From positions 1 to 64,000 of the IMG/VR virus record IMGVR_UViG_3300048798_000032: a DNA stretch of 64,000 nt; one strand, written 5' to 3'. Source of the DNA: a virus. This document shows, piece by piece, positions 3,540-47,724 of the stretch. Within the stretch, counting starts at the first letter, position 1. The number at the start of each line of letters is the position of its first letter. The notes beneath the pieces were generated by a model. That model was not told the DNA's origin. It worked only from the letters and a program-made list of their open reading frames with translations, and made no database searches. Both the position numbers and the translations under genes were made by a program.

Positions 3540-3638
3540 GGCCGGTAGCTCAGTTGGACAGAGCGCCGTGTGGCCAGCCAAATGCGCAAGCGGCGAAGCC
3601 TGCGATCGGCAGATGCGGGTTCAAGTCCCGTCCTGGCC
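3540..3638 (+). tRNA. tRNA-like sequence with enlarged anticodon region
   Basis: The D arm (GCTC 3548-3551 with GAGC 3561-3564) and T arm (GCGGG/CCCGT around the loop TTCAAGT, 3615-3631) are canonical. Six acceptor pairs form (3540-3545 with 3633-3638). A class II-like variable hairpin, CTGC-GATCG-GCAG, is at 3600-3612. The anticodon arm is abnormal: only GCCG 3565-3568 with CGGC 3591-3594 pairs, leaving a 22-base loop, so I cannot name an anticodon. The spacer between acceptor and D arm is also one base short. It may be a degenerate tRNA, a tRNA-derived RNA or an attachment-site relic. Confidence 0.5.
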
Positions 3639-3644
3639 TTCCCG

Positions 3645-14439: not shown

Positions 14440-14497
14440 TTGACGTCCTCCCCGGCCTGAAGGCGCGGGGATTCCTGCTGCGCGGCTCACGCCGCGC
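14440..14497 (-). repeat. Right end / omega-RNA scaffold of copy 1
   Basis: Read on the - strand: inverted repeat GCGCGGC..GCCGCGC and hairpin CCCCG-cgccttcaggc-CGGGG, ending GACGTCAA. In TnpB systems this region is the 3' scaffold of the guide RNA, with the guide read from the DNA just beyond the end (here 14439 and leftward). It is 98% identical to the orphan at 4676-4733. Confidence 0.7.
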
Positions 14498-15683
14498 TCC
14501 GGTGGGTTCCTGTTTCACGGACAGCCGCCGGGGCAAGCCCCGGCCTTACGCCGTCTCCGCAGGCGTTTAGAGTGTCCCTGCGTCCCAGGGCCACTATGTT
14601 CCGGGCCGCGTTGACGTCCCGGTCATGCGCTGCTCCGCACCCGCCGCACGTCCATGCGCGGACACTCAGCGGCTTCGGGCCGTCCTTCACGCCGCACACC
14701 GAGCACACCTGCGACGTGGGCTCGAACCGGCCGATCTTGCCAAAGGTGCGGCAATGCCGGGCGGCCTTGTATTCCAGCATTCCGGTGAAGGTGGCCCACC
14801 CGGCGTCGTGCACTGACTTGGCCAGCCTCGTGCGCGCCAGGCCCCTGACGCACAGATCCTCCACGTACACCGCTTGGTTTTCGCGGATGATGCGCGTGGA
14901 TTCCTTGTGCAGCCAGTCCCGGCGCGAGTCGGCCACGTGGGCGTGGACCCTGGCGACCCTAACCCGGGCCTTGGTGCGGTTGCTGCTGCCCTTGGCCTTG
15001 CGGGACAGGGCCTGCTGCGCCTTGCGGAGCTTCCGCTCAGCCCGGCGCAGGAACTTCGGGGAGGCGACCTTCCGGCCATCCGACAGGACCGCGAAGTGGG
15101 TCAGCCCGAGGTCGACGCCTACCTCAGTACCCACCTCGGGGAGTGGGTCACCGGGGACCTCGACCACGAACGAGGCGAAGTACCGGCCCGCCGCGTCCTT
15201 GGTCACGGTCACGCTGGACGGTTCGGCGGGGAGCGGGCGGGACCAGCGGACTGGTATGTCCCCGATCTTCGGCAGCCGCAGATTCCCGTTCGGGAGCACC
15301 TTGAACCGGGCGTTGGCGGTGAACCGGGCCGACTGACGGTGGTCCTTGCGGGACCGGAACCGCGGTGGTGCCACCTTCGGCCCCTTCCGCTTACCCGTGG
15401 CGGAGGCGAAGAAGTTCCGGTAGGCGGTGTTCAGGTCCGCGAGGGCCTGCTGAAGCACCACCGACGACACGTTGCCCAGCCACGCCCGTTCCGGGGTGGT
15501 CTTGACAGTGGTCAGCTGGGCCGACAACTCGGCGTCGGTGATGTACGGCTCCCCGGCGGCGAATGCTTCCCGCCGCGCGGCCAGCGCGTCGTTGAACACC
15601 ACCCGGGTGCAGCCGAACGCCCGGCCGAGGCCCTGCCGGTGCCGGGGGGCCGGGTCGAGGCGGTAGTTGTACCGGAGCTGCAC
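14487..15683 (-). CDS. tnpB: TnpB RNA-guided nuclease (IS605 family)
   Basis: A 398-residue TnpB, ancestor-type of Cas12. RuvC residues are intact: D191 (GVDLGL), E275 (VEDLCV) and D354 (AAHDRD). The zinc ribbon uses C327, C330, C346 and C349. TnpB cuts the empty donor site under omega-RNA guidance, which helps keep the transposon. The GTG at 15683 is chosen because a TATACT -10 lies 6 bases upstream, predicting a leaderless mRNA. The reading frame continues further upstream without a credible start. Confidence 0.88.
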   Translation of the reverse strand: MQLRYNYRLDPAPRHRQGLGRAFGCTRVVFNDALAARREAFAAGEPYITDAELSAQLTTVKTTPERAWLGNVSSVVLQQALADLNTAYRNFFASATGKRKGPKVAPPRFRSRKDHRQSARFTANARFKVLPNGNLRLPKIGDIPVRWSRPLPAEPSSVTVTKDAAGRYFASFVVEVPGDPLPEVGTEVGVDLGLTHFAVLSDGRKVASPKFLRRAERKLRKAQQALSRKAKGSSNRTKARVRVARVHAHVADSRRDWLHKESTRIIRENQAVYVEDLCVRGLARTRLAKSVHDAGWATFTGMLEYKAARHCRTFGKIGRFEPTSQVCSVCGVKDGPKPLSVRAWTCGGCGAAHDRDVNAARNIVALGRRDTLNACGDGVRPGLAPAAVRETGTHRSAA

Positions 15684-15689
15684 CCGCTC

Positions 15690-15697
15690 AGTATAAT
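15690..15697. promoter_or_regulatory. Overlapping divergent -10 elements, tnpA/tnpB
   Basis: TATAAT (15692-15697, + strand) lies 7 bases before tnpA ATG 15705; TATACT (15690-15695, - strand) lies 6 bases before tnpB GTG 15683. The two hexamers share four base pairs, so polymerase cannot occupy both. Both mRNAs would be leaderless. Confidence 0.65.
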
Positions 15698-15704
15698 TGG
15701 TTTT

Positions 15705-16121
15705 ATGGCCGAGTACGGCACCGTACGCACTGGCAGGCATTGTGTTTTCATCCTGCACGCACACTTGGTTTTCGTCACCAAATACCGGCATCAGGTGTTC
15801 ACCGCCGCGCACCTGGAACGCATGGAGGAGATCATGCGGGACGTGTGCGCGGACTTCGGCACCGAACTGGCCGAGTTCAACGGCGAGGCAAACCACGTCC
15901 ACCTACTGGTGAACTTCCCGCCCACCGTGGCCCTCTCCCGGCTGGTCAACAGCCTCAAAGGCGTCTCGTCCCGCCGGCTGCGGCAGGAGTTCCCCAGCCT
16001 CGTAAGGCACTACTGGCGGGCTAAGCGACTGTGGTCCGGGTCGTACTTCGCCGGATCGGTCGGCGGGGCACCCATCAGCGTCCTGCGCCAGTACATCGAG
16101 CAGCAAGACCGGCCGGCTTAG
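15705..16121 (+). CDS. tnpA: TnpA Y1 HUH transposase (IS200/IS605)
   Basis: A 138-residue single-strand transposase. The HUH motif is H64-V-H66 in GEANHVHLLVN and the catalytic tyrosine is probably Y130 in VLRQYIEQQ. Length and layout (LHAHLVFVTKYRHQVF at the start) are typical for the family. Acts as a dimer to excise and insert the element as single-stranded DNA through the hairpins at its ends. Confidence 0.9.
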   Translation: MAEYGTVRTGRHCVFILHAHLVFVTKYRHQVFTAAHLERMEEIMRDVCADFGTELAEFNGEANHVHLLVNFPPTVALSRLVNSLKGVSSRRLRQEFPSLVRHYWRAKRLWSGSYFAGSVGGAPISVLRQYIEQQDRPA

Positions 16122-19414: not shown

Positions 19415-20278
19415 TCACCCTTCCTGTCTCACAAGGTGCGGTCGCTTGTCCTCTTTGATCCACCGTCCCGCAGTCGCCTTTGAGACACCAACCGACTCAG
19501 CCAGTGCGGCCTGAGTGATCGACGGGTTGGCGCGGATGAGGCGGCGTGCCCTGGCTCGCTGCTCCGGTGTGGCGCGAGGCTTGGATGAGTCATTCGTACG
19601 TCGTTGCTGCGTCATCGGATGCGGGTCAGGTGAGCCGGTAAGTGACTCACCGGATGCGTCATCGGTCAGATCATCAGCGACGAGAGATTCATCCGCTGAT
19701 GCCTCATCGTCGCTGGCCGGCCCATCGGCGGGCGCTTCATCCCGGCGTGCTTCCCACCTGCTGACCGCTTCCCGTGGGTCAGTGATACCGGCCCACGTCG
19801 CGTCGAACATGACCTGCGCCGACCGGAGCGGATGCCACGCCCACCGGGTCATCCCGAGACGCAGCGCGTGCGGTTCAACGAGCCCCCTGGCCATCAGCGC
19901 GTCACGGGACGCCCGGCGCGAATGGACCGCCCACAGCCACGGTGACGACACGGACATGAGCCCGAACGCCACCGCGGCAAAGGTGGGGCGCCAGCCGGGC
20001 CCGGCGTAGTGGTCGTAGTTCATCGCGCCGATCACCGCGGCGAACGTGTACGCGGCCAGCCGTAGGCGCAGCGCTGAGTCGTTGGCGAGCTGCGCGACGT
20101 GCGCGTGATAGCCGAGGTAGACGGCGATGGACTCCAGCGCCAGGGCCACCAGGATCTGGCCGCCTAGCGGCCAGTGCAGGTGAGTGCGCAGGAATGCGAG
20201 CTGGCCAGCGAACGCCACCGCGTTGACCAGGGCGACAGGAACCGCTGCGGCGATGGGGTGGGTCTTGCCGGTGCTCAT
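19415..20278 (-). CDS. DUF2637 membrane protein with C-terminal HTH
   Basis: A 287-residue protein. Residues 1-125 carry about four membrane helices with the DUF2637 signature (HWPLGGQILVALALESIAVYL), a family of actinomycete plasmids and integrative conjugative elements, often near tra/spd genes. After an acidic linker, residues 235-285 form an HTH (NPSITQAALAESVGVSKATAGRWI). Probably linked to DNA spread between hyphal compartments. Last intact gene of the traB operon. Confidence 0.78.
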   Translation of the reverse strand: MSTGKTHPIAAAVPVALVNAVAFAGQLAFLRTHLHWPLGGQILVALALESIAVYLGYHAHVAQLANDSALRLRLAAYTFAAVIGAMNYDHYAGPGWRPTFAAVAFGLMSVSSPWLWAVHSRRASRDALMARGLVEPHALRLGMTRWAWHPLRSAQVMFDATWAGITDPREAVSRWEARRDEAPADGPASDDEASADESLVADDLTDDASGESLTGSPDPHPMTQQRRTNDSSKPRATPEQRARARRLIRANPSITQAALAESVGVSKATAGRWIKEDKRPHLVRQEG

Positions 20279-20374
20279 CTGGCTATCCTCCGCTTTCGTC
20301 CTCGTTGGTGACGGGGTTTGAACTGCCCGTTTCCGTCACTCTCCGTGACGCTTGCGGGTTGCCCCTCCCCCATC

Positions 20375-20452
20375 CGGCCATTGCCCGGCCATTAGCCGTG
20401 GCCATTCGGCGGCCATTGCCCTATGCAGCCACATCCCGGCCATTCGGCCATT
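20375..20452. repeat. CGGCCATT repeat array beside traB (clt-like)
   Basis: Five copies of CGGCCATT (GGCCATT starting at 20376, 20387, 20411, 20438 and 20446) and one TGGCCATT (20399) lie within 78 bases, 35 bases after the traB stop. Streptomyces plasmids carry 8-bp direct repeats (clt/TRS) near traB that the winged-helix C-terminus of TraB binds during transfer. The repeat word differs from the known GACCCGGA. Confidence 0.65.
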
Positions 20453-20486
20453 GCGTGCACGGACGTGTGCGGGTGCGCGCCCGTCG

Positions 20487-22577
20487 TCACAGAGGGTGAG
20501 AGTTCAGCCAAGCCTCACCCTCGGCAGTGATCTTGAACTTGGCGCCCTTCCCCTTGCCGGGCGGACCCACCAGGCCGTCGAGCCGAAGGCGGTTCATCCA
20601 GGCTGTGACCTCGTGCCTTTTCGCGCCGAGTTGATCAACCAAGGCGCGGCCGGAAACGCCCTCACCTGCGGAAAGCTGCAAAAGCCGCCGCTTCTGCTCG
20701 TCGGTGATCATGGTCTTGCGGGCTTCCTCGGCCCACGCTGCCGAGGTGAAGCGGTCCAGTTGATCTTGCGGCACGCTGGCGAGCCGGGCGGCCATCTCCT
20801 CGTTCTCGCTGGCCACGCGATCATTCGCGGCGCGCTTGCCGTCGAGTTTGGCGAGCAGCGCGCGGGCTTCCGGGTCGAGCGCGGAGTCAAGGCTGCCGTG
20901 TTCCATGTCGTACGCTCCGAGGTCGCCGGGGGTCTCCGGTGCGGGGGAGGGGGTTGTTACTGGCGGGTAACTTCCCGGTGGCCCGGCCGGTCCGCCACCC
21001 GCCGTGACCGTGACCTTCGCGCTGGGACGCTGCGGCAGGCCAGCCTCCAGCTTCACCGGGCGGTCGCGGCGCTCGTACGCCAGTTCACGGACGTCCAGCA
21101 GGTCGGACAGGTTGAAGGCGCGGCCGATCTCCGAACGGCCACCCGCCTCGCGCTCACCGATCCACCAGACGCCCGAGTGCGCCTCGCCGTAGGCGGACAT
21201 GTTCGGCGCGTCAGCCTCCCCGGCGGCGTGGTTCGCATCGGTCTGGTTGCAGCGGCCGATGCACGCCAGGTCTGCCTGGCTGCGGACGTTCGCGCCGCCG
21301 AACCACTGGGCTACGCCGCGCTGGCCGGCGAGCAGCACGGCCAGGGCCTCGCTGCGGTGCTTGGACGTGATGTGCTGGAGCCGCTCGGACGCGCCGGGAA
21401 TCTTCATCAGCGCGTCGATCTCGTCGGCGACCAGGACGACGCCCGGCTGCTCGCTGGAGGGGATCAGCGTGGCGACGTCGCGGCCGAGCAGCGGCCGGCC
21501 GTCGATGATGCCGCACAGCCAGTCCAGGATCGCGATCGCCTTGCGGGACTGGCCTGGGCCGATCGCGCTCTCGTAGCAGGCCGGCGACCACTCCAGCGCC
21601 TCGATCGCCTTCGACACGTTGATGTACACCAGCAGCGCGTCATCGCAGGCGGTCACGGCTTCGCACACGTCGGAGATCAGCGTGGTCTTGCCGGCATCCT
21701 TCTTGCCGACCATGATGACCGTCTTGCCGCCGTGGGAGTCGAACAGGGTCATGCGGAGCGGGCGCCCGCTGTCGGGGTCCTGGCCGACGATCAGCGGCTG
21801 CGTGATGGTGCGCGGCCCGGTCAGGTCGATCTCCGGTGCGTCATCAAACAGCGGGTGCGGGATCGGGTGCTTCCACGGGTCGCGGAGCTGGATACGCAAC
21901 CGCAGGCGGCCGGGCTTGGGTGCGCTCGAATGCACGCGCCCAAACGGCAGTCCGCGGCGTTCGGCGTAGCGCTCCTCGAGGTCCCGGCCCGCTAGCGACG
22001 TGGCGCGGCGGCCCGTGCCGGTCGTGTCGAACTCGAGCACTTCACCGAGCCGGGTCTCCTCGTGGCTGATCAGGTGCGCACCACCGATGCCGAGGGGGTG
22101 CGCCTCGCGGAGCGCGCCCATCTTGCGTGCGCGCCACGTCTTCGCCGCGGTGACCACCTCGTGCCGGTGCAGCCAGCGCAGGCCCCACAGTGCGAGCGCC
22201 AGCCACACCCACGTCACCGCGCAGTACGGGCCGTACAGCGGGCCGTGCCAGGTGGCCAGCGCAAGCCAGCCGCCCGCGAACACGGTCCCGGTCAGGACTT
22301 GCCGGGCGTGCTTGAGCCGCTTCTCCGGATCGGCGCGCTTGTGCGCTTTGCGCGCCATCCGGGCATGCAAAAGCGCGCCAACGGCAACGGCGGCGAGTGC
22401 GATGTCGAGCGCGGGAACGTGGGTCAGGTGGAACGTCTCCGACGCGACCCACAGTGCGACCGCACCGGGAAGCGCGGCGCGTGCGGCCTGCTCGGCTGGC
22501 TCACGCTTCAGCGCGGCGTGATGCGCGTCGACAGCGGCAGGCGCGCTTGGCGATGGCGGCAGTTCAGCGAGGGCCAT
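20487..22577 (-). CDS. traB: TraB-like FtsK-type DNA translocase
   Basis: A 696-residue protein. Membrane helices occupy about 35-135. The motor has Walker A GKKDAGKT (291-298) and Walker B VVLVADEID (380-388). A Pro-rich linker and a C-terminal winged helix (DEQKRRLLQLSAGEGVSGRAL...) follow, the same order as in Streptomyces TraB, which pumps double-stranded DNA from donor to recipient mycelium. Neighbouring DUF2637, hydrolase and regulator genes support the assignment. An FtsK-like role in resolving the element is the alternative. Confidence 0.85.
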   Translation of the reverse strand: MALAELPPSPSAPAAVDAHHAALKREPAEQAARAALPGAVALWVASETFHLTHVPALDIALAAVAVGALLHARMARKAHKRADPEKRLKHARQVLTGTVFAGGWLALATWHGPLYGPYCAVTWVWLALALWGLRWLHRHEVVTAAKTWRARKMGALREAHPLGIGGAHLISHEETRLGEVLEFDTTGTGRRATSLAGRDLEERYAERRGLPFGRVHSSAPKPGRLRLRIQLRDPWKHPIPHPLFDDAPEIDLTGPRTITQPLIVGQDPDSGRPLRMTLFDSHGGKTVIMVGKKDAGKTTLISDVCEAVTACDDALLVYINVSKAIEALEWSPACYESAIGPGQSRKAIAILDWLCGIIDGRPLLGRDVATLIPSSEQPGVVLVADEIDALMKIPGASERLQHITSKHRSEALAVLLAGQRGVAQWFGGANVRSQADLACIGRCNQTDANHAAGEADAPNMSAYGEAHSGVWWIGEREAGGRSEIGRAFNLSDLLDVRELAYERRDRPVKLEAGLPQRPSAKVTVTAGGGPAGPPGSYPPVTTPSPAPETPGDLGAYDMEHGSLDSALDPEARALLAKLDGKRAANDRVASENEEMAARLASVPQDQLDRFTSAAWAEEARKTMITDEQKRRLLQLSAGEGVSGRALVDQLGAKRHEVTAWMNRLRLDGLVGPPGKGKGAKFKITAEGEAWLNSHPL

Positions 22578-28265: not shown

Positions 28266-28321
28266 CCCGGGCTTTGGGCGGCGCAAGCCCCGGCGTTCAG
28301 GCCGGGGATAGCCGCTTGCCC

Positions 28322-28726
28322 TCAACTGGGCCTGCGCTGGCCCTCGACGTAGGCCCGGATGATCGACAGCGGTGCGCCACCGCAGGATGCGGCGAAGTAG
28401 GACGGGGACCACAGGTGCTCGCGGTGAGTACGGACCCGGTACCGCTGGCGGAGCCTGCGCGCCGATACGCCCTTGAGGGAGTTCACCAGCCCGGCGACTG
28501 GGACCTTGGGCGGGTACTCGATCAGCAGGTGCACGTGGTCGTCCTCGCCGTTGCACTCCACGAGGGTGGCGCCGAAGTCCTCGCACACCTTCCCGAAGAC
28601 CCCGGTCAGGTAGCTGATCATTTCCCCGGTGAGGACGCCGCGCCGGTACTTGGTCACGAAGACCAAGTGAACATGCAGGGCCGAAACCGCGTGCCTGCCT
28701 CGGCGGTAATCATCGATGGTGTCCAT
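28322..28726 (-). CDS. tnpA: TnpA Y1 HUH transposase
   Basis: A 134-residue protein with HUH residues H64 and H66 (DDHVHLLIE) and likely catalytic Y126 (IIRAYVEGQ). A TACCAT -10 lies 8 bases before the ATG. Same family as 15705-16121 with many substitutions; complete. Confidence 0.9.
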   Translation of the reverse strand: MDTIDDYRRGRHAVSALHVHLVFVTKYRRGVLTGEMISYLTGVFGKVCEDFGATLVECNGEDDHVHLLIEYPPKVPVAGLVNSLKGVSARRLRQRYRVRTHREHLWSPSYFAASCGGAPLSIIRAYVEGQRRPS

Positions 28727-28734
28727 AGACCAAC

Positions 28735-28744
28735 ATGGTACAGT
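28735..28744. promoter_or_regulatory. Overlapping divergent -10 elements, copy 2
   Basis: TACCAT on the - strand (28735-28740) for tnpA and TACAGT on the + strand (28739-28744) for tnpB; the latter is 6 bases before GTG 28751. The arrangement matches copy 1 although the bases differ, so it appears selected. Confidence 0.55.
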
Positions 28745-28750
28745 GGTCGT

Positions 28751-29959
28751 GTGCTGTCCCGATACCGCTACCGCGTGTACCCGGAGCCGGGTCAGATGAT
28801 CACGCTGGCCCGGACGTTCGGGTGCGCCCGCGTGGTCTACAACGACTCGCTGCGGCTGCGGGAAGACTCCCACGCGGGCGGCCAGAGGATCTCCGACACC
28901 GAAGTGCAGCGGCAGGTCGTCACCCTCGCGAAGACCACCCCGGAGCGGGAGTGGCTGGGTGAGGTGGCGTCGGTGGCGCTGGTGCAGGCGTGCCAGGACG
29001 CGCGCCGCGCCTACCGAAACTGGTTCGATTCGCTGTCCGGGAAGCGCAAGGGCCGCAAGGTCGGGCACCCGCGATTCCGGTCCCGTAAGGACAACCGGCA
29101 GTCGGTGCGGCTCACCCGTAACGGCTTCACCCTTCGTGGGGACAGGCTGTACGTGGCGAAGGTCGGCGACCTGAAAGTCCGCTGGTCCCGGTCGCTGCCA
29201 TCGCAGCCGTCCAGCGTCACCATCATCCGCGAGGCGGACGGGCGCTACTACGCCTCGTTCGTGGTGGAGGTGGCCGCCACCCCGCTGTCGGCCGTCAGCC
29301 GCGACATCGGCCTGGACCTCGGCCTGGCCGTCCTGGCCGCAACCTCGGACGGTGAGCTGATCGCCAACCCGCGTCACCTGCGGGCACGGGAACGGCATCT
29401 CGCACGGGCACAGCGGGCACTGGCCCGCAAGGCCAAAGGCTCCGCCAACCGGCAGAAAGCCAGGGTCCGCGTGGCGGTGCAGCACCGCAAGGTCCGCGAG
29501 GCGCGGGCTGACCACCTGCACAAGACAGCGCTTCGGCTAGTCCGTGATAACCAAGCGGTCTACGTCGAAGACCTGGCGGTATCCGGCCTGGCCAGGACCA
29601 GGCTGGCGAAGTCCGTGCACGACGCCGGGTGGGCGACGTTCGTCCGGCTGCTGGAAGAGAAAGCGCAGCGGTACGGGCGCACGGTGGTCAAGGTTGGCCG
29701 CTGGTTCCCGTCCAGCCAGATCTGCTCCATGTGTGGCGTGAAGGACGGCCCGAAGCCGCTGAACGTCCGGGAGTGGACCTGCGGCGACTGCGGCGCTACG
29801 CACGACCGGGACGTGAACGCGGCGCGCAACATCCGCCTGGAAGGCAGGAAGGTGGCGGCCGGGCAGGCCGACACCCTAAACGGCTGCGGAGGGACTGTAA
29901 GACCGGGACGTGTCCCGGCTGGACCCAGTGAAACAGCAACCCACCGGAGCGCGGCGTGA
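28751..29959 (+). CDS. tnpB: TnpB RNA-guided nuclease
   Basis: A 402-residue TnpB with intact RuvC residues D189 (IGLDLGL), E273 (VEDLAV) and D352 (ATHDRD), and zinc cysteines C325, C328, C344 and C347. GTG 28751 is chosen from the TACAGT -10 and from alignment with copy 1 (LSRYRYRVYP versus LRYNYRLDP). Likely functional if its omega-RNA is made from the 3' end and right end. Confidence 0.88.
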   Translation: MLSRYRYRVYPEPGQMITLARTFGCARVVYNDSLRLREDSHAGGQRISDTEVQRQVVTLAKTTPEREWLGEVASVALVQACQDARRAYRNWFDSLSGKRKGRKVGHPRFRSRKDNRQSVRLTRNGFTLRGDRLYVAKVGDLKVRWSRSLPSQPSSVTIIREADGRYYASFVVEVAATPLSAVSRDIGLDLGLAVLAATSDGELIANPRHLRARERHLARAQRALARKAKGSANRQKARVRVAVQHRKVREARADHLHKTALRLVRDNQAVYVEDLAVSGLARTRLAKSVHDAGWATFVRLLEEKAQRYGRTVVKVGRWFPSSQICSMCGVKDGPKPLNVREWTCGDCGATHDRDVNAARNIRLEGRKVAAGQADTLNGCGGTVRPGRVPAGPSETATHRSAA

Positions 29960-42898: not shown

Positions 42899-43093
42899 GG
42901 CACCGGTCACCTTCCGATTGTCACATGGATGTGGCCTAGGGCAAGTATGCAACATAGACGGGTGCCACGCAACATGTTGCACTGCCACATACTGTGTGGC
43001 ATAGTCGGGACCAGCGTGGCGAGGCCCGGCGGTGCGGGGCATGACCGGTCGCGGCTATGGCTAGCCCGGGTTGGGCGAGGCATGGATTCACCA

Positions 43094-43133
43094 GGGCGGA
43101 TGGCATACAGCCGGGTTCGGGTCCCGGTCGCCC
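43094..43133 (+). ncRNA. T-arm-like minihelix 1
   Basis: GGGCG, a 12-base linker, a T-arm hairpin CCGGG-TTCGGGT-CCCGG, one base, CGCCC. Followed by ACGCTGGGCTTGGC. See the finding for the four-copy comparison. Confidence 0.6.
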
Positions 43134-43228
43134 ACGCTGGGCTTGGCAGGCCAGTGGCATCGCTGGCCCCGGCATGGTTCGGCTGGGCGCGTCATGGCTC
43201 GCCAAGGCCGGGCTAGGCAAGGAACTAC

Positions 43229-43268
43229 GGCCGACAGGAAGGCACTGGGGTTCGAGCCCTCAGCGGTC
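43229..43268 (+). ncRNA. T-arm-like minihelix 2
   Basis: GGCCG, 12 bases, TGGGG-TTCGAGC-CCTCA, one base, CGGTC (outer stem with one G-U). The outer stem differs from copy 1 in both arms yet still pairs. Followed by ACGCAGGGTGCGGC. Confidence 0.6.
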
Positions 43269-43386
43269 ACGCAGGGTGCGGCAGGGCAGTGCCAGGCAGG
43301 CCCCGGCGCGGCTCGTTATGGCTGGGCACGGCAGAACCCGGCTTGGTATGGCCCGGCAAGGCAAGGACGCAACGAAAGGGAGAGCG

Positions 43387-43959
43387 ATGGACTTCCGGAT
43401 CACGATCAAGGGCACGGACAGCTTGCTGATGCACAATGCGCGGCTGGCCAATCCGCTCGACCCGGCCGCGAAAGCGGTCAAGAAGCTCACGGGCAAGCGG
43501 AACAAGACCGATGACGACTACGAGGAACTCGCCCACGTTGAGTGGCAGGGGTCGTTCTACTTCGATCCCGACGTCGGCCCGTTCATCCCCGGCGACAACA
43601 TCTGGCGTTCGCTCTATGACGCGGCCAAGAAGCACAAGAAGGGCCCGCGCATCAAGGAAGGCGTGTTCATCGCCACCAGCATCAACCCGATCGCCTATGC
43701 GGGTGCGCGCAGCCTGGACGCGCTGTGGGCTGACGAGAACTTCAAGCACTTCGCCTCGGTGAAAGTCGGCACGGCGCGGACCTCCCGCTGCCGCCCGATG
43801 TTCCGCCAGTGGAAGGTCGCAGCCGATGGCGTGCTGGACACGAATGTCATGGACCTAGCCGAACTCCAGCAGGTTGCCGAGACGGCCGGCTCACTGATCG
43901 GGCTAGGGGACTGGCGCCCGCGGTACGGCCGGTATGTGGCCGAGGTGGAGAAGGTCTAG
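43387..43959 (+). CDS. Conserved phage protein, unknown function
   Basis: A 190-residue protein (FRITIKGTDSLLMHNARLAN, DDDYEELAHVEWQGSFYFD, GDNIWRSLYDAAKKHKKG, LIGLGDWRPRYGRYVAEVE). I know this pattern as a widespread phage family near replication/recombination genes, without an assigned role. GGGAG lies 7 bases before the ATG. Flanked on both sides by minihelix regions. Confidence 0.75.
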   Translation: MDFRITIKGTDSLLMHNARLANPLDPAAKAVKKLTGKRNKTDDDYEELAHVEWQGSFYFDPDVGPFIPGDNIWRSLYDAAKKHKKGPRIKEGVFIATSINPIAYAGARSLDALWADENFKHFASVKVGTARTSRCRPMFRQWKVAADGVLDTNVMDLAELQQVAETAGSLIGLGDWRPRYGRYVAEVEKV

Positions 43960-44068
43960 GTCTCACCTGGGCGTGGCGGGGCGGCGCAAGGCAATCCCAG
44001 GCTTCGCGGGGCGTGGCCGGACAGTGCACTCCTGGCCAAGGCAGCACCAGGGCTTGACAGGGCATTCA

Positions 44069-44109
44069 GGGTGACCGGCAGGCATCAGGGTTCAAGCCCC
44101 TGACACCCG
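44069..44109 (+). ncRNA. T-arm-like minihelix 3
   Basis: GGGTG, 12 bases, CAGGGG-TTCAAG-CCCCTG, one base, CACCC. Followed by GCGCAGGGTGCGGC, almost the same as after copy 2. Confidence 0.6.
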
Positions 44110-44203
44110 CGCAGGGTGCGGCTTGCCTGGGCGAGTCGGGCCTGGGCGCGGCCATGCGAGACCGGTCACGGCCGGGCAGTACCTGGCTAGCCGAGGCAAG
44201 GAA

Positions 44204-44244
44204 GGGCGACATGGCAGACATCAGGGTCCGAGTCCCTGACGCCC
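44204..44244 (+). ncRNA. T-arm-like minihelix 4
   Basis: GGGCG, 13 bases, CAGGG-TCCGAGT-CCCTG, one base, CGCCC. Followed by ACGCTAGGCATGG. Ends 38 bases before the next gene. Confidence 0.6.
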
Positions 44245-44282: not shown

Positions 44283-44843
44283 ATGGCAGACAGGGCACCA
44301 TTCGAGCCCATCGGAGAACAAGCCCGGTGGCGCGTGATCTATGAGGCACTGAAAGACGTCCCAGTGGGCGAGACGATTACCTACGAGCGTCTCGGGACTG
44401 TTCTCGATCTTGACCCGAAGGACGACCGGAGCGTCATTCAGCAGGCCATGCACCGCGCAGCCTACGAGTTGGAGACGCAGGACAAGCACGCGGTCGACTC
44501 GGTGCGCGGCATTGGCTACCGCGTCGTAGAGCCTGTAGAGCACATGGGCCTAGCGGTCAGGCAGCAGAAGCGTTCCCGCAGGGCCTTGGAGCGCGGCCAG
44601 TCCAAGGTTGTCAACGTGGACCTCACTGGCATGGAACCGGAAATCCGCAAGGCGTTTGAGGTGCTAGCGACCGGGTTCGCACTTCAGGCCGACTTTAACC
44701 GCCGCATCGAGAACCGGCAGGCGCGACTGGACCGGGCACTGCGTGAGATCAGCGACACGCAGGACACCGACCGCAAGCACAGCGACGAGGAGATCACCGA
44801 ACTCCGCGAACGGCTGGCGCGGCTTGAAGCGGGCACTACCTGA
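44283..44843 (+). CDS. Winged-helix and coiled-coil protein
   Basis: A 186-residue protein. Residues 10-80 look like a winged helix (RWRVIYEALKDVPVGETITY, VIQQAMHRAAYELETQDKHA, GIGYRVVEP). Residues 125-186 form a coiled coil (LDRALREISDTQDTDRKHSD). Probably a DNA-binding regulator or replication accessory. Confidence 0.65.
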   Translation: MADRAPFEPIGEQARWRVIYEALKDVPVGETITYERLGTVLDLDPKDDRSVIQQAMHRAAYELETQDKHAVDSVRGIGYRVVEPVEHMGLAVRQQKRSRRALERGQSKVVNVDLTGMEPEIRKAFEVLATGFALQADFNRRIENRQARLDRALREISDTQDTDRKHSDEEITELRERLARLEAGTT

Positions 44844-46385: not shown

Positions 46386-46794
46386 CCGAGGCCGAGGTCC
46401 GCGAGCTGCTGAACGTCTGCGGCGAGTACGACGGCACCGAGTACGGGGAACCCGCGGTGGTGTTCTGGGCTGAGGCCCCGGACTGCCGGTGGCTGCCGAA
46501 CCTGGCCTGCGACGAGGCTCCCGCCGCAGCAAAGATCGCGAGCCTGCTCCTCGGTGATCGGCGTCCCAAGAATCCCGCCGCGTACTGCCGCAAAGCCATC
46601 CAGAGCGACCCTGATCCGGTAGCCCGGTTCGCCATCCCGCCGCTGGCATGGCCGCCCTGGTGCGGCGAGTGCGATGAGCGCGACCGGACCCGCGAGACCG
46701 AACCGCGGCCCGGTGCCGTAGTCACCGTCGAACGGTGCCCGAACTGCCACCCCCTGCGAGACGCAGACCCCAACCCTCCACGAGGAGCAACGGC

Positions 46795-46798
<4 letters not shown>
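46382..46798 (+). CDS. Phage protein with zinc ribbon
   Basis: A 138-residue protein from GTG. N-terminal helical part (VTEAEVRELLNVCGEYDG) and C-terminal WCGECDERDR...RCPNCHP zinc ribbon. Unknown. Confidence 0.6.

Positions 46799-47720
<922 letters not shown>

Positions 47721-47724
<4 letters not shown>

Follow-up and report, generated by a model that had tools for sequence, protein, structure and literature searches.

Non-coding spacers on either side of a gene at 43387 hold four similar units of 40 or 41 nt in the window analysed here, a 64,000-nucleotide stretch of viral DNA (positions 1 to 64,000 of IMG/VR record IMGVR_UViG_3300048798_000032). An earlier note on this DNA had taken the units for a repeated T-arm/acceptor minihelix RNA with covarying outer stems. 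What are these units, how widely do they occur, and what could a phage use them for?

The four units in the window

All four units were recovered where the earlier note had placed them, in the non-coding spacers flanking the gene and all on the + strand, with covariance model E-values of 1e-13 to 3e-9 (Table 1). Units 1–3 were inside the training set of this model (R1, built from 68 distinct class I copies) and unit 4 (44204) was outside it. A descriptor combining a 6-bp T-stem, the T-loop, a 5-bp outer stem and a GG in an 11- or 12-nt linker gave exactly four matches in the 64 kb, which are the four units, none on the opposite strand and none in 40 order-3 Markov simulations. No match comparable to the four was found by R1 elsewhere in the 103,428-bp record. 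Unit 4 ends 38 nt ahead of the start codon at 44283.

The plan first proposed for the unit has to be redrawn. Its 5-bp outer stem and T-loop hairpin stand, but instead of a 12–13-nt linker, a 5-bp hairpin and one extra base, the unit is better described by an 11- or 12-nt linker and a 6-bp T-stem that sits flush on the outer stem, giving a stack of 11 bp. What had been called a conserved tail is really the A/G-C dinucleotide of the element followed by the first bases of an NNGGC pentamer tract. Full-length tRNA genes underlying the units were looked for with ARAGORN and Rfam and none exist there: ARAGORN called no tRNA at the four units, and Rfam, at gathering and E-value levels, returned nothing relevant to them. 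A tRNA gene was thus rejected (40–41 nt, no anticodon arm, no ARAGORN or Rfam call). A CRISPR array was also rejected, as the stems of the units vary freely and the spacers are periodic pentamers. No intrinsic terminator (GC hairpin and U tract) was seen in the region, and no terminator or sigma-70 promoter in the window scored above threshold. Folding of single copies by MFE was unremarkable (z of -0.1 to -1.1) and one copy misfolded; since single-sequence folding is uninformative for these units, the evidence for their fold is comparative.

Table 1. Elbow units, Vipr-like gene and pentamer tracts in the window.
Feature	Positions	Strand	Composition or description	Score
Elbow unit 1, class I	43094..43133	+	GGGCG·GATGGCATACA·GCCGGG·TTCGGGT·CCCGGT·CGCCC, then AC	52.3 bits, E 6.9e-12
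Elbow unit 2	43229..43268	+	GGCCG·ACAGGAAGGCA·CTGGGG·TTCGAGC·CCTCAG·CGGTC, then AC	47.8 bits, E 1.3e-10
Elbow unit 3	44069..44108	+	GGGTG·ACCGGCAGGCA·TCAGGG·TTCAAGC·CCCTGA·CACCC, then GC	59.0 bits, E 9.6e-14
Elbow unit 4, 12-nt linker	44204..44244	+	GGGCG·ACATGGCAGACA·TCAGGG·TCCGAGT·CCCTGA·CGCCC, then AC	42.8 bits, E 2.9e-9
Vipr-like gene, phrog_4652	43387..43959	+	Cas7/Csm3 RAMP-type fold (predicted)
Probable degenerate NNGGY tract ahead of unit 1	43010..43093	+	pentamer print-out	weak
NNGGY tract, units 1–2	43134..43228	+		lag-5 autocorrelation 0.47
NNGGY tract, unit 2 to Vipr-like gene	43269..43386	+		phase score 0.79 (mean 0.14)
NNGGY tract, gene to unit 3	43960..44068	+	more degenerate	lag-5 0.46; below 0.6 phase threshold
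NNGGY tract, units 3–4	44109..44203	+		lag-5 0.48; below 0.6 phase threshold

Some other features of the window were noted in passing. A tRNA match in Rfam (3540–3639, +, 32.4 bits), which ARAGORN missed, spans 100 nt with a long insertion and is possibly an odd or decayed tRNA. By eye, a large FtsK/translocase-like ORF lies at 19415–22577 beside a second ORF that may encode a membrane protein; a like pair is found near elbow copies in an Actinocatenispora genome (L155, 1438–4645), and the pair looks like an integrative element or phage-plasmid module. An ORF at 46735–47724 (+) contains a long low-complexity stretch of Ala and Thr only, likely a coding repeat of variable length. Two TnpB-like ORFs of the IS200/IS605 type (14487–15902, -; 28274–29959, +; by eye) each overlap an opposite-strand ORF that resembles TnpA.

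Anatomy and covariation of the element

The element is composed of a 5-bp outer stem, a linker of 11 or 12 nt, a 6-bp T-stem, a 7-nt T-loop and an unpaired A/G-C. In class I the acceptor/T stack has 11 bp (5+6). In class II (R2), defined by a ATGGTCGNAG linker and a 6-bp outer stem, it has 12 bp (6+6). For a test of the pairing, 248 sites were picked by the linker GG, T-stem and loop alone, leaving the outer stem and two linker pairs unused. All five outer pairs were formed in 98% of these sites and in 0–1% of them after a slide of 1–3 nt. Pair 7–13 within the linker was standard in 246 sites, and pair 14–29, which joins linker to T-loop across the T-stem, in all 248, where A-U, G-C, C-G and U-A all occur. 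By mutual information these two pairs rank among the stem pairs. The presence of G.T pairs and the absence of A.C pairs in the 248 sites indicate that the RNA has the sequence of the coding strand. With kinship between copies ignored, the class I alignment (A1) is 99.4% paired with a covariation of 0.898, against 0.189 when shuffled and 0.10–0.17 when slid, and the class II alignment is 100% paired with a covariation of 1.006 against 0.180. The check suggested at the outset, a covariance model and a search of actinophages, has therefore been run and gives the structure overwhelming support: covariation in homologues confirms a repeated minihelix RNA.

Among 205 copies, columns 9, 10, 23 and 25 are invariant, column 24 is kept in 204 and R26 in all. 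The GG at 9–10 was part of the selection, yet it was absent from only 6 of 409 candidates. These residues are those of the tRNA elbow, namely GG (18–19) and T54, T55, C56, R57 and A58. The hallmarks of the tRNA-elbow/T-loop class of RNAs are all there: a UUCRA T-loop on a paired stem, the GG and, in the covarying pair 14–29, a tertiary contact between D side and T-loop. What the element imitates, in minimal form and without an anticodon arm, is the tRNA elbow and acceptor arm, and its linker is a D-loop substitute that provides the GG and two covarying tertiary pairs. The idea of a T half lacking the D part must be abandoned, because the linker, with its invariant GG, 1-bp mini D-stem and pair to the T-loop, supplies just what the D-loop brings to a tRNA elbow. 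Reviews (PMC4810234, PMC4919913) cover the tRNA elbow and the molecules that read it, among them RNase P, RNase Z, the T-box and the L1 stalk.

Both classes share the tail N73-C74-notC75. The helix is followed by A or G, then C, and the third base is seldom C (C74 in 97% and 94%, C75 in 5% and 3% of class I and class II copies, respectively). C74 is encoded by all 31 tRNA genes of Streptomyces and all 41 of Amycolatopsis (72/72), and the full CCA by six in each (12/72). Judged by sequence, the phage element bears the 3′ signature of host pre-tRNAs. Position 1 is G in 93% of class I copies. Position -1 is A in 71%, unlike in host tRNAs, which are C-rich there, so this part of the signature is not tRNA-derived.

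Distribution among phages

The element is not special to this phage and is present in many actinophages. In total, 448 class I and 75 class II sites were collected in about 200 loci, from Streptomyces and Mycobacterium phages, Gordonia phages and a few prophages. More than 100 loci with the element came from pattern scans of IMG/VR, against only nine stretches from 85,000 genomes of bacteria and archaea. BLAST with unit 1 found no match, whereas unit 3 (51 nt) matched 122 phage records, all of Streptomyces or Mycobacterium phages, and every one of the matches listed lay outside annotated features. A consensus query reached at least 80% coverage in at least 137 phage records. For units this short and divergent BLAST is insufficient and a covariance model is needed: R1 matched all 15 records tested, with 1–15 copies each on one strand, except for a 17-nt fragment. 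None of the 75 loci with at least two copies had mixed strands. Class II is carried by Konstantine, Endor1, Dagobah, Trine, MakoManhole and Fromanvirus phages, and both classes occur together in 12 loci. R1 matches were present in two of 150 Streptomyces genomes, as four clustered copies each.

A plasmid search for the element gave no match, and Giles and phiC31 were negative for it. The cluster M mycobacteriophages Bongo and Rey have unusual repeats. They are not members, nearly all their matches being 15–17-nt partials of the T-arm. Rfam returned no match in 13 loci rich in copies, and the element is an RNA class absent from that database. ARAGORN calls that overlap some copies are probably artefacts. 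For the Camvirus phage Kamino, the published paper reports that there are no tRNA genes and nowhere uses the word 'intergenic'. No account of the element was found in the literature searched, which left out most subscription journals, and an earlier report is possible.

A Vipr-like gene and pentamer tracts beside the units

The first reading of the locus was incomplete in that it overlooked the homologue of a Cas7-fold Vipr protein encoded at 43387 and the pentamer tracts around it, and it is these that explain the local arrangement in the window. The profile of the gene matched PDB 36pp_D ('SUSP1 Vipr protein') with an E-value of 4e-53. Its AlphaFold2 model (pLDDT 91.4) matched chains of Csm3/Cas7 from type III/VII CRISPR systems with a best E-value of 4e-6 and a TM of about 0.4–0.55, that is, the same fold type and not a close one. 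The product is a clear sequence homologue of the Vipr protein 36pp_D with a predicted Cas7-type fold.

The tracts (Table 1) compare with a lag-5 autocorrelation baseline of 0.27 ± 0.05 for 115-bp windows across the sequence and with a phase-score threshold of 0.6. In 10 of 12 other vipr loci, as in the window, tracts lie on the strand of the gene, and none were found on the opposite strand. The tract between unit 2 and the gene has GGCAAGGA near its 3′ end (family D3), and many tracts of the window end in this sequence. More generally, tracts of about 75–130 nt of NNGGY (GGC/GGT) stand by vipr-like genes in the window (43010–44203) and at loci L303, L304, L065, L047, L193, L009, L157, L156, L307 and L309, in phages of actinobacteria, Salmonella and Pseudomonas. 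They could be a guide-like RNA of Vipr.

Elbows flank the vipr-like gene on one or both sides in LittleE, MakoManhole, prophiBWHA-1, L304/L038, L065, L047, L193 and L009, and follow it in Trine. LittleE has nearly the layout of the window: a pair of elbows upstream of the gene is spaced by 135 nt and a pair downstream by 144 nt. Conversely, Felixounavirus BPS15Q2 and Pseudomonas phage Medea1 have tracts without elbow arrays. In BPS15Q2 (L307, NC_031939 43200–47500) four tracts surround the vipr homologue; their separators are different hairpins (AAGAGTCTT...GAGGGTTTTTAA) and each tract ends in a conserved handle (GGTATGGGTAGTTA / GGATGGNAGTAGCC). Elbows adjoin a tract in only 9 of 205 elbow loci, all nine with a vipr-like gene (a weak match in L205). 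As the elbow stands without tracts outside vipr loci, it is not a Vipr component as such and is a general device of actinophages.

Position in ordinary phage operons

In six annotated phages, 45 of 48 sites were clear of annotated genes. They typically lay 6–40 nt past a stop codon and 27–61 nt ahead of a start codon, with medians of about 13 and 43 nt. Copies in annotated phages are concentrated in the early/replication arm. In phages of Streptomyces and mycobacteria the element commonly has another hairpin behind it, which begins at +3 to +6 and is followed by the ribosome-binding site.

In gene gaps of BroPlease (L002, 1015–1176 and 3205–3346) the sequence GTGTGWTAGGCTGAG, which resembles a -10 motif (TAGGCT), recurs. 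At the 3205 gap a bulged elbow copy follows it closely. Some elbows may be in leaders of short transcripts. In L154, L151 and L155, a GTG in GGGTGACC makes elbow copies look like ORF starts, and their translation yields false peptides of a typical form (GxEPxxLPV). Gene-calling programs may therefore annotate such spacers wrongly, for example as Trine gp40 and LittleE gp35.

What the element could do

Among the functions listed in the earlier note, a processing signal is retained here as the best reading; packaging and a decoy found no support. We propose, with a probability of roughly 0.6, that the elbow is a transcript punctuation mark cut by the host enzymes of pre-tRNA maturation, RNase P and/or RNase Z. 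These enzymes recognise the elbow and measure along the acceptor/T stack (PMC4919913, PMC4810234). The element combines an elbow with an acceptor/T stack, whose length in class II is exactly the 12 bp of tRNA and in class I is 11 bp, and with a 3′ end as in host pre-tRNAs. Something that separates both cistrons and non-coding units, resembles a pre-tRNA elbow and carries the host 3′ signature is explained most simply as a target of the pre-tRNA enzymes of the host. That the element alternates with the tracts around vipr genes speaks for such a separator. G9/G10 would dock on U24/C25 as G18/G19 do on Psi55/C56, and this docking would create the flat elbow face that is clamped by RNase P RNA and RNase Z. 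Cuts would fall ahead of position 1 (RNase P) and/or just past the acceptor strand (RNase Z), leaving structured transcript ends. In most phages the early mRNA, which is polycistronic, would be split between the stop codon of one cistron and the ribosome-binding site of the next, and at loci of the window type the cuts would separate NNGGY-tract units, possibly the RNAs bound by Vipr, beside the Cas7-fold Vipr gene. As to the cutter, the G at position 1 suits RNase P. CCA is an antideterminant for RNase Z (PMC4919913), and the avoidance of C75 suits this enzyme. Counter-points to the whole tRNA-enzyme reading are the class I stack of 11 and not 12 bp, the A found at position -1 in most copies, and the scarcity of C at position 75, which would let RNase P pair with RCCA only in part. 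Other elbow binders, such as the ribosome, TruB or the CCA-adding enzyme, could be the reader instead.

It is unlikely that the element is an uncut protective knot that, alone or with the next hairpin, blocks 5′-3′ (RNase J) or 3′-5′ exonucleases and stabilises cistrons in the manner of viral exonuclease-resistant RNAs. Such a knot would leave the N73-C74-notC75 signature of host tRNA genes unaccounted for and would not need the exact elbow consensus, any stable hairpin being enough, even though the compact fold with its linker-to-loop pair crossing the T-stem, the stop-to-start placement and the further hairpin that often comes next would all agree with it. The nearness to stop codons (often 6–16 nt), the fairly constant distance to starts and the contacts of the ribosome with tRNA elbows (PMC4810234) would suit an element for the ribosome or a translation factor, aiding re-initiation or insulating cistrons somewhat as the intergenic tRNA-like IRES of some eukaryotic viruses. 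We consider this quite improbable, since a separate ribosome-binding site is visible past the element and the vipr loci hold many elbows in long non-coding arrays, far from starts. Transcription through untranslated gaps, with the element as an antiterminator binding RNA polymerase or as a block to Rho loading, is very doubtful: neither a tRNA elbow nor C74 would be necessary, although finding one copy in each real gap between the genes of early operons, on their strand, would be expected. Known put-type elements are few per genome, unlike the phage elbow. There is only a slim chance that the copies act in trans, as small RNAs or decoys that titrate tRNA-binding proteins such as RNase P or RNase Z; a copy number that reaches 15 in a genome and a faithful elbow would serve this purpose, but the copies sit between genes at set distances from stops and starts and not as stand-alone genes, and decoys would have no need to occupy every gap. 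A DNA-level repeat, a mobile element or eroded tRNA genes, suggested by the dispersed copies and the resemblance to the 3′ part of a tRNA, is hardly credible given the compensatory changes (G.U, no A.C), the tertiary covariation, the strict strand bias, the lack of a 5′ or anticodon part and the R1 matches in just two of 150 Streptomyces genomes.

Punctuation by pre-tRNA enzymes thus stays our preferred reading. A broader version, in which actinophages use the mini elbow as a general cut signal for both mRNA cistrons and pentamer-coded Vipr RNAs, is put forward tentatively, at somewhat less than even odds. It would include natural tRNA-guide arrays and a non-CRISPR RNA format of period 5.

Comparison with known systems

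The miniature fold is new and its kind, tRNA mimicry, is known. The element is a structured RNA that has gone unannotated and is absent from Rfam; at least 137 phage records, well-studied teaching phages included, carry it, and a single genome can have as many as 15 copies. If its use is confirmed, tRNA punctuation would extend to phages. Cleavage by RNase P or RNase Z would make it a second, tRNA-based route of phage mRNA processing beside the RNase III sites of T7, and perhaps the smallest natural elbow substrate. Beside Vipr genes, the elbow offers a concrete idea of how such RNAs arise.

Like tRNA (RF00005), the element has a TTCRA T-loop, a GG docking element, a stack of 11 or 12 bp and an unpaired N73-C74 tail. 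It differs in lacking the anticodon arm, in a D-stem of at most one pair and in its length of 40–41 nt; it gets no Rfam call and rarely an ARAGORN call, and implies no amino-acid identity. A structured element between cistrons recalls the tRNA punctuation of mitochondrial transcripts (Ojala 1981, as cited in PMC4565877). It also recalls the RNase III sites of the T7 early genes, where intercistronic structure is recognised by a host RNase, as may be the case for the elbow. Compared with these two systems, a mini elbow replaces the whole tRNA or the RNase III hairpin, and its cleavage is a proposal. Bacterial YrlA Y RNAs mimic the elbow to engage tRNA enzymes. So does the TYMV TLS (PMC4810234). 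The phage elbow is much smaller than both, operon-internal, present in many copies per genome and found in DNA phages. In the Felixounavirus Vipr locus NNGGY tracts flank the gene too, separated by other hairpins, whereas the actinophage tracts are separated by elbows. The arrangement in the window may be a natural counterpart of engineered tRNA-guide-RNA arrays.
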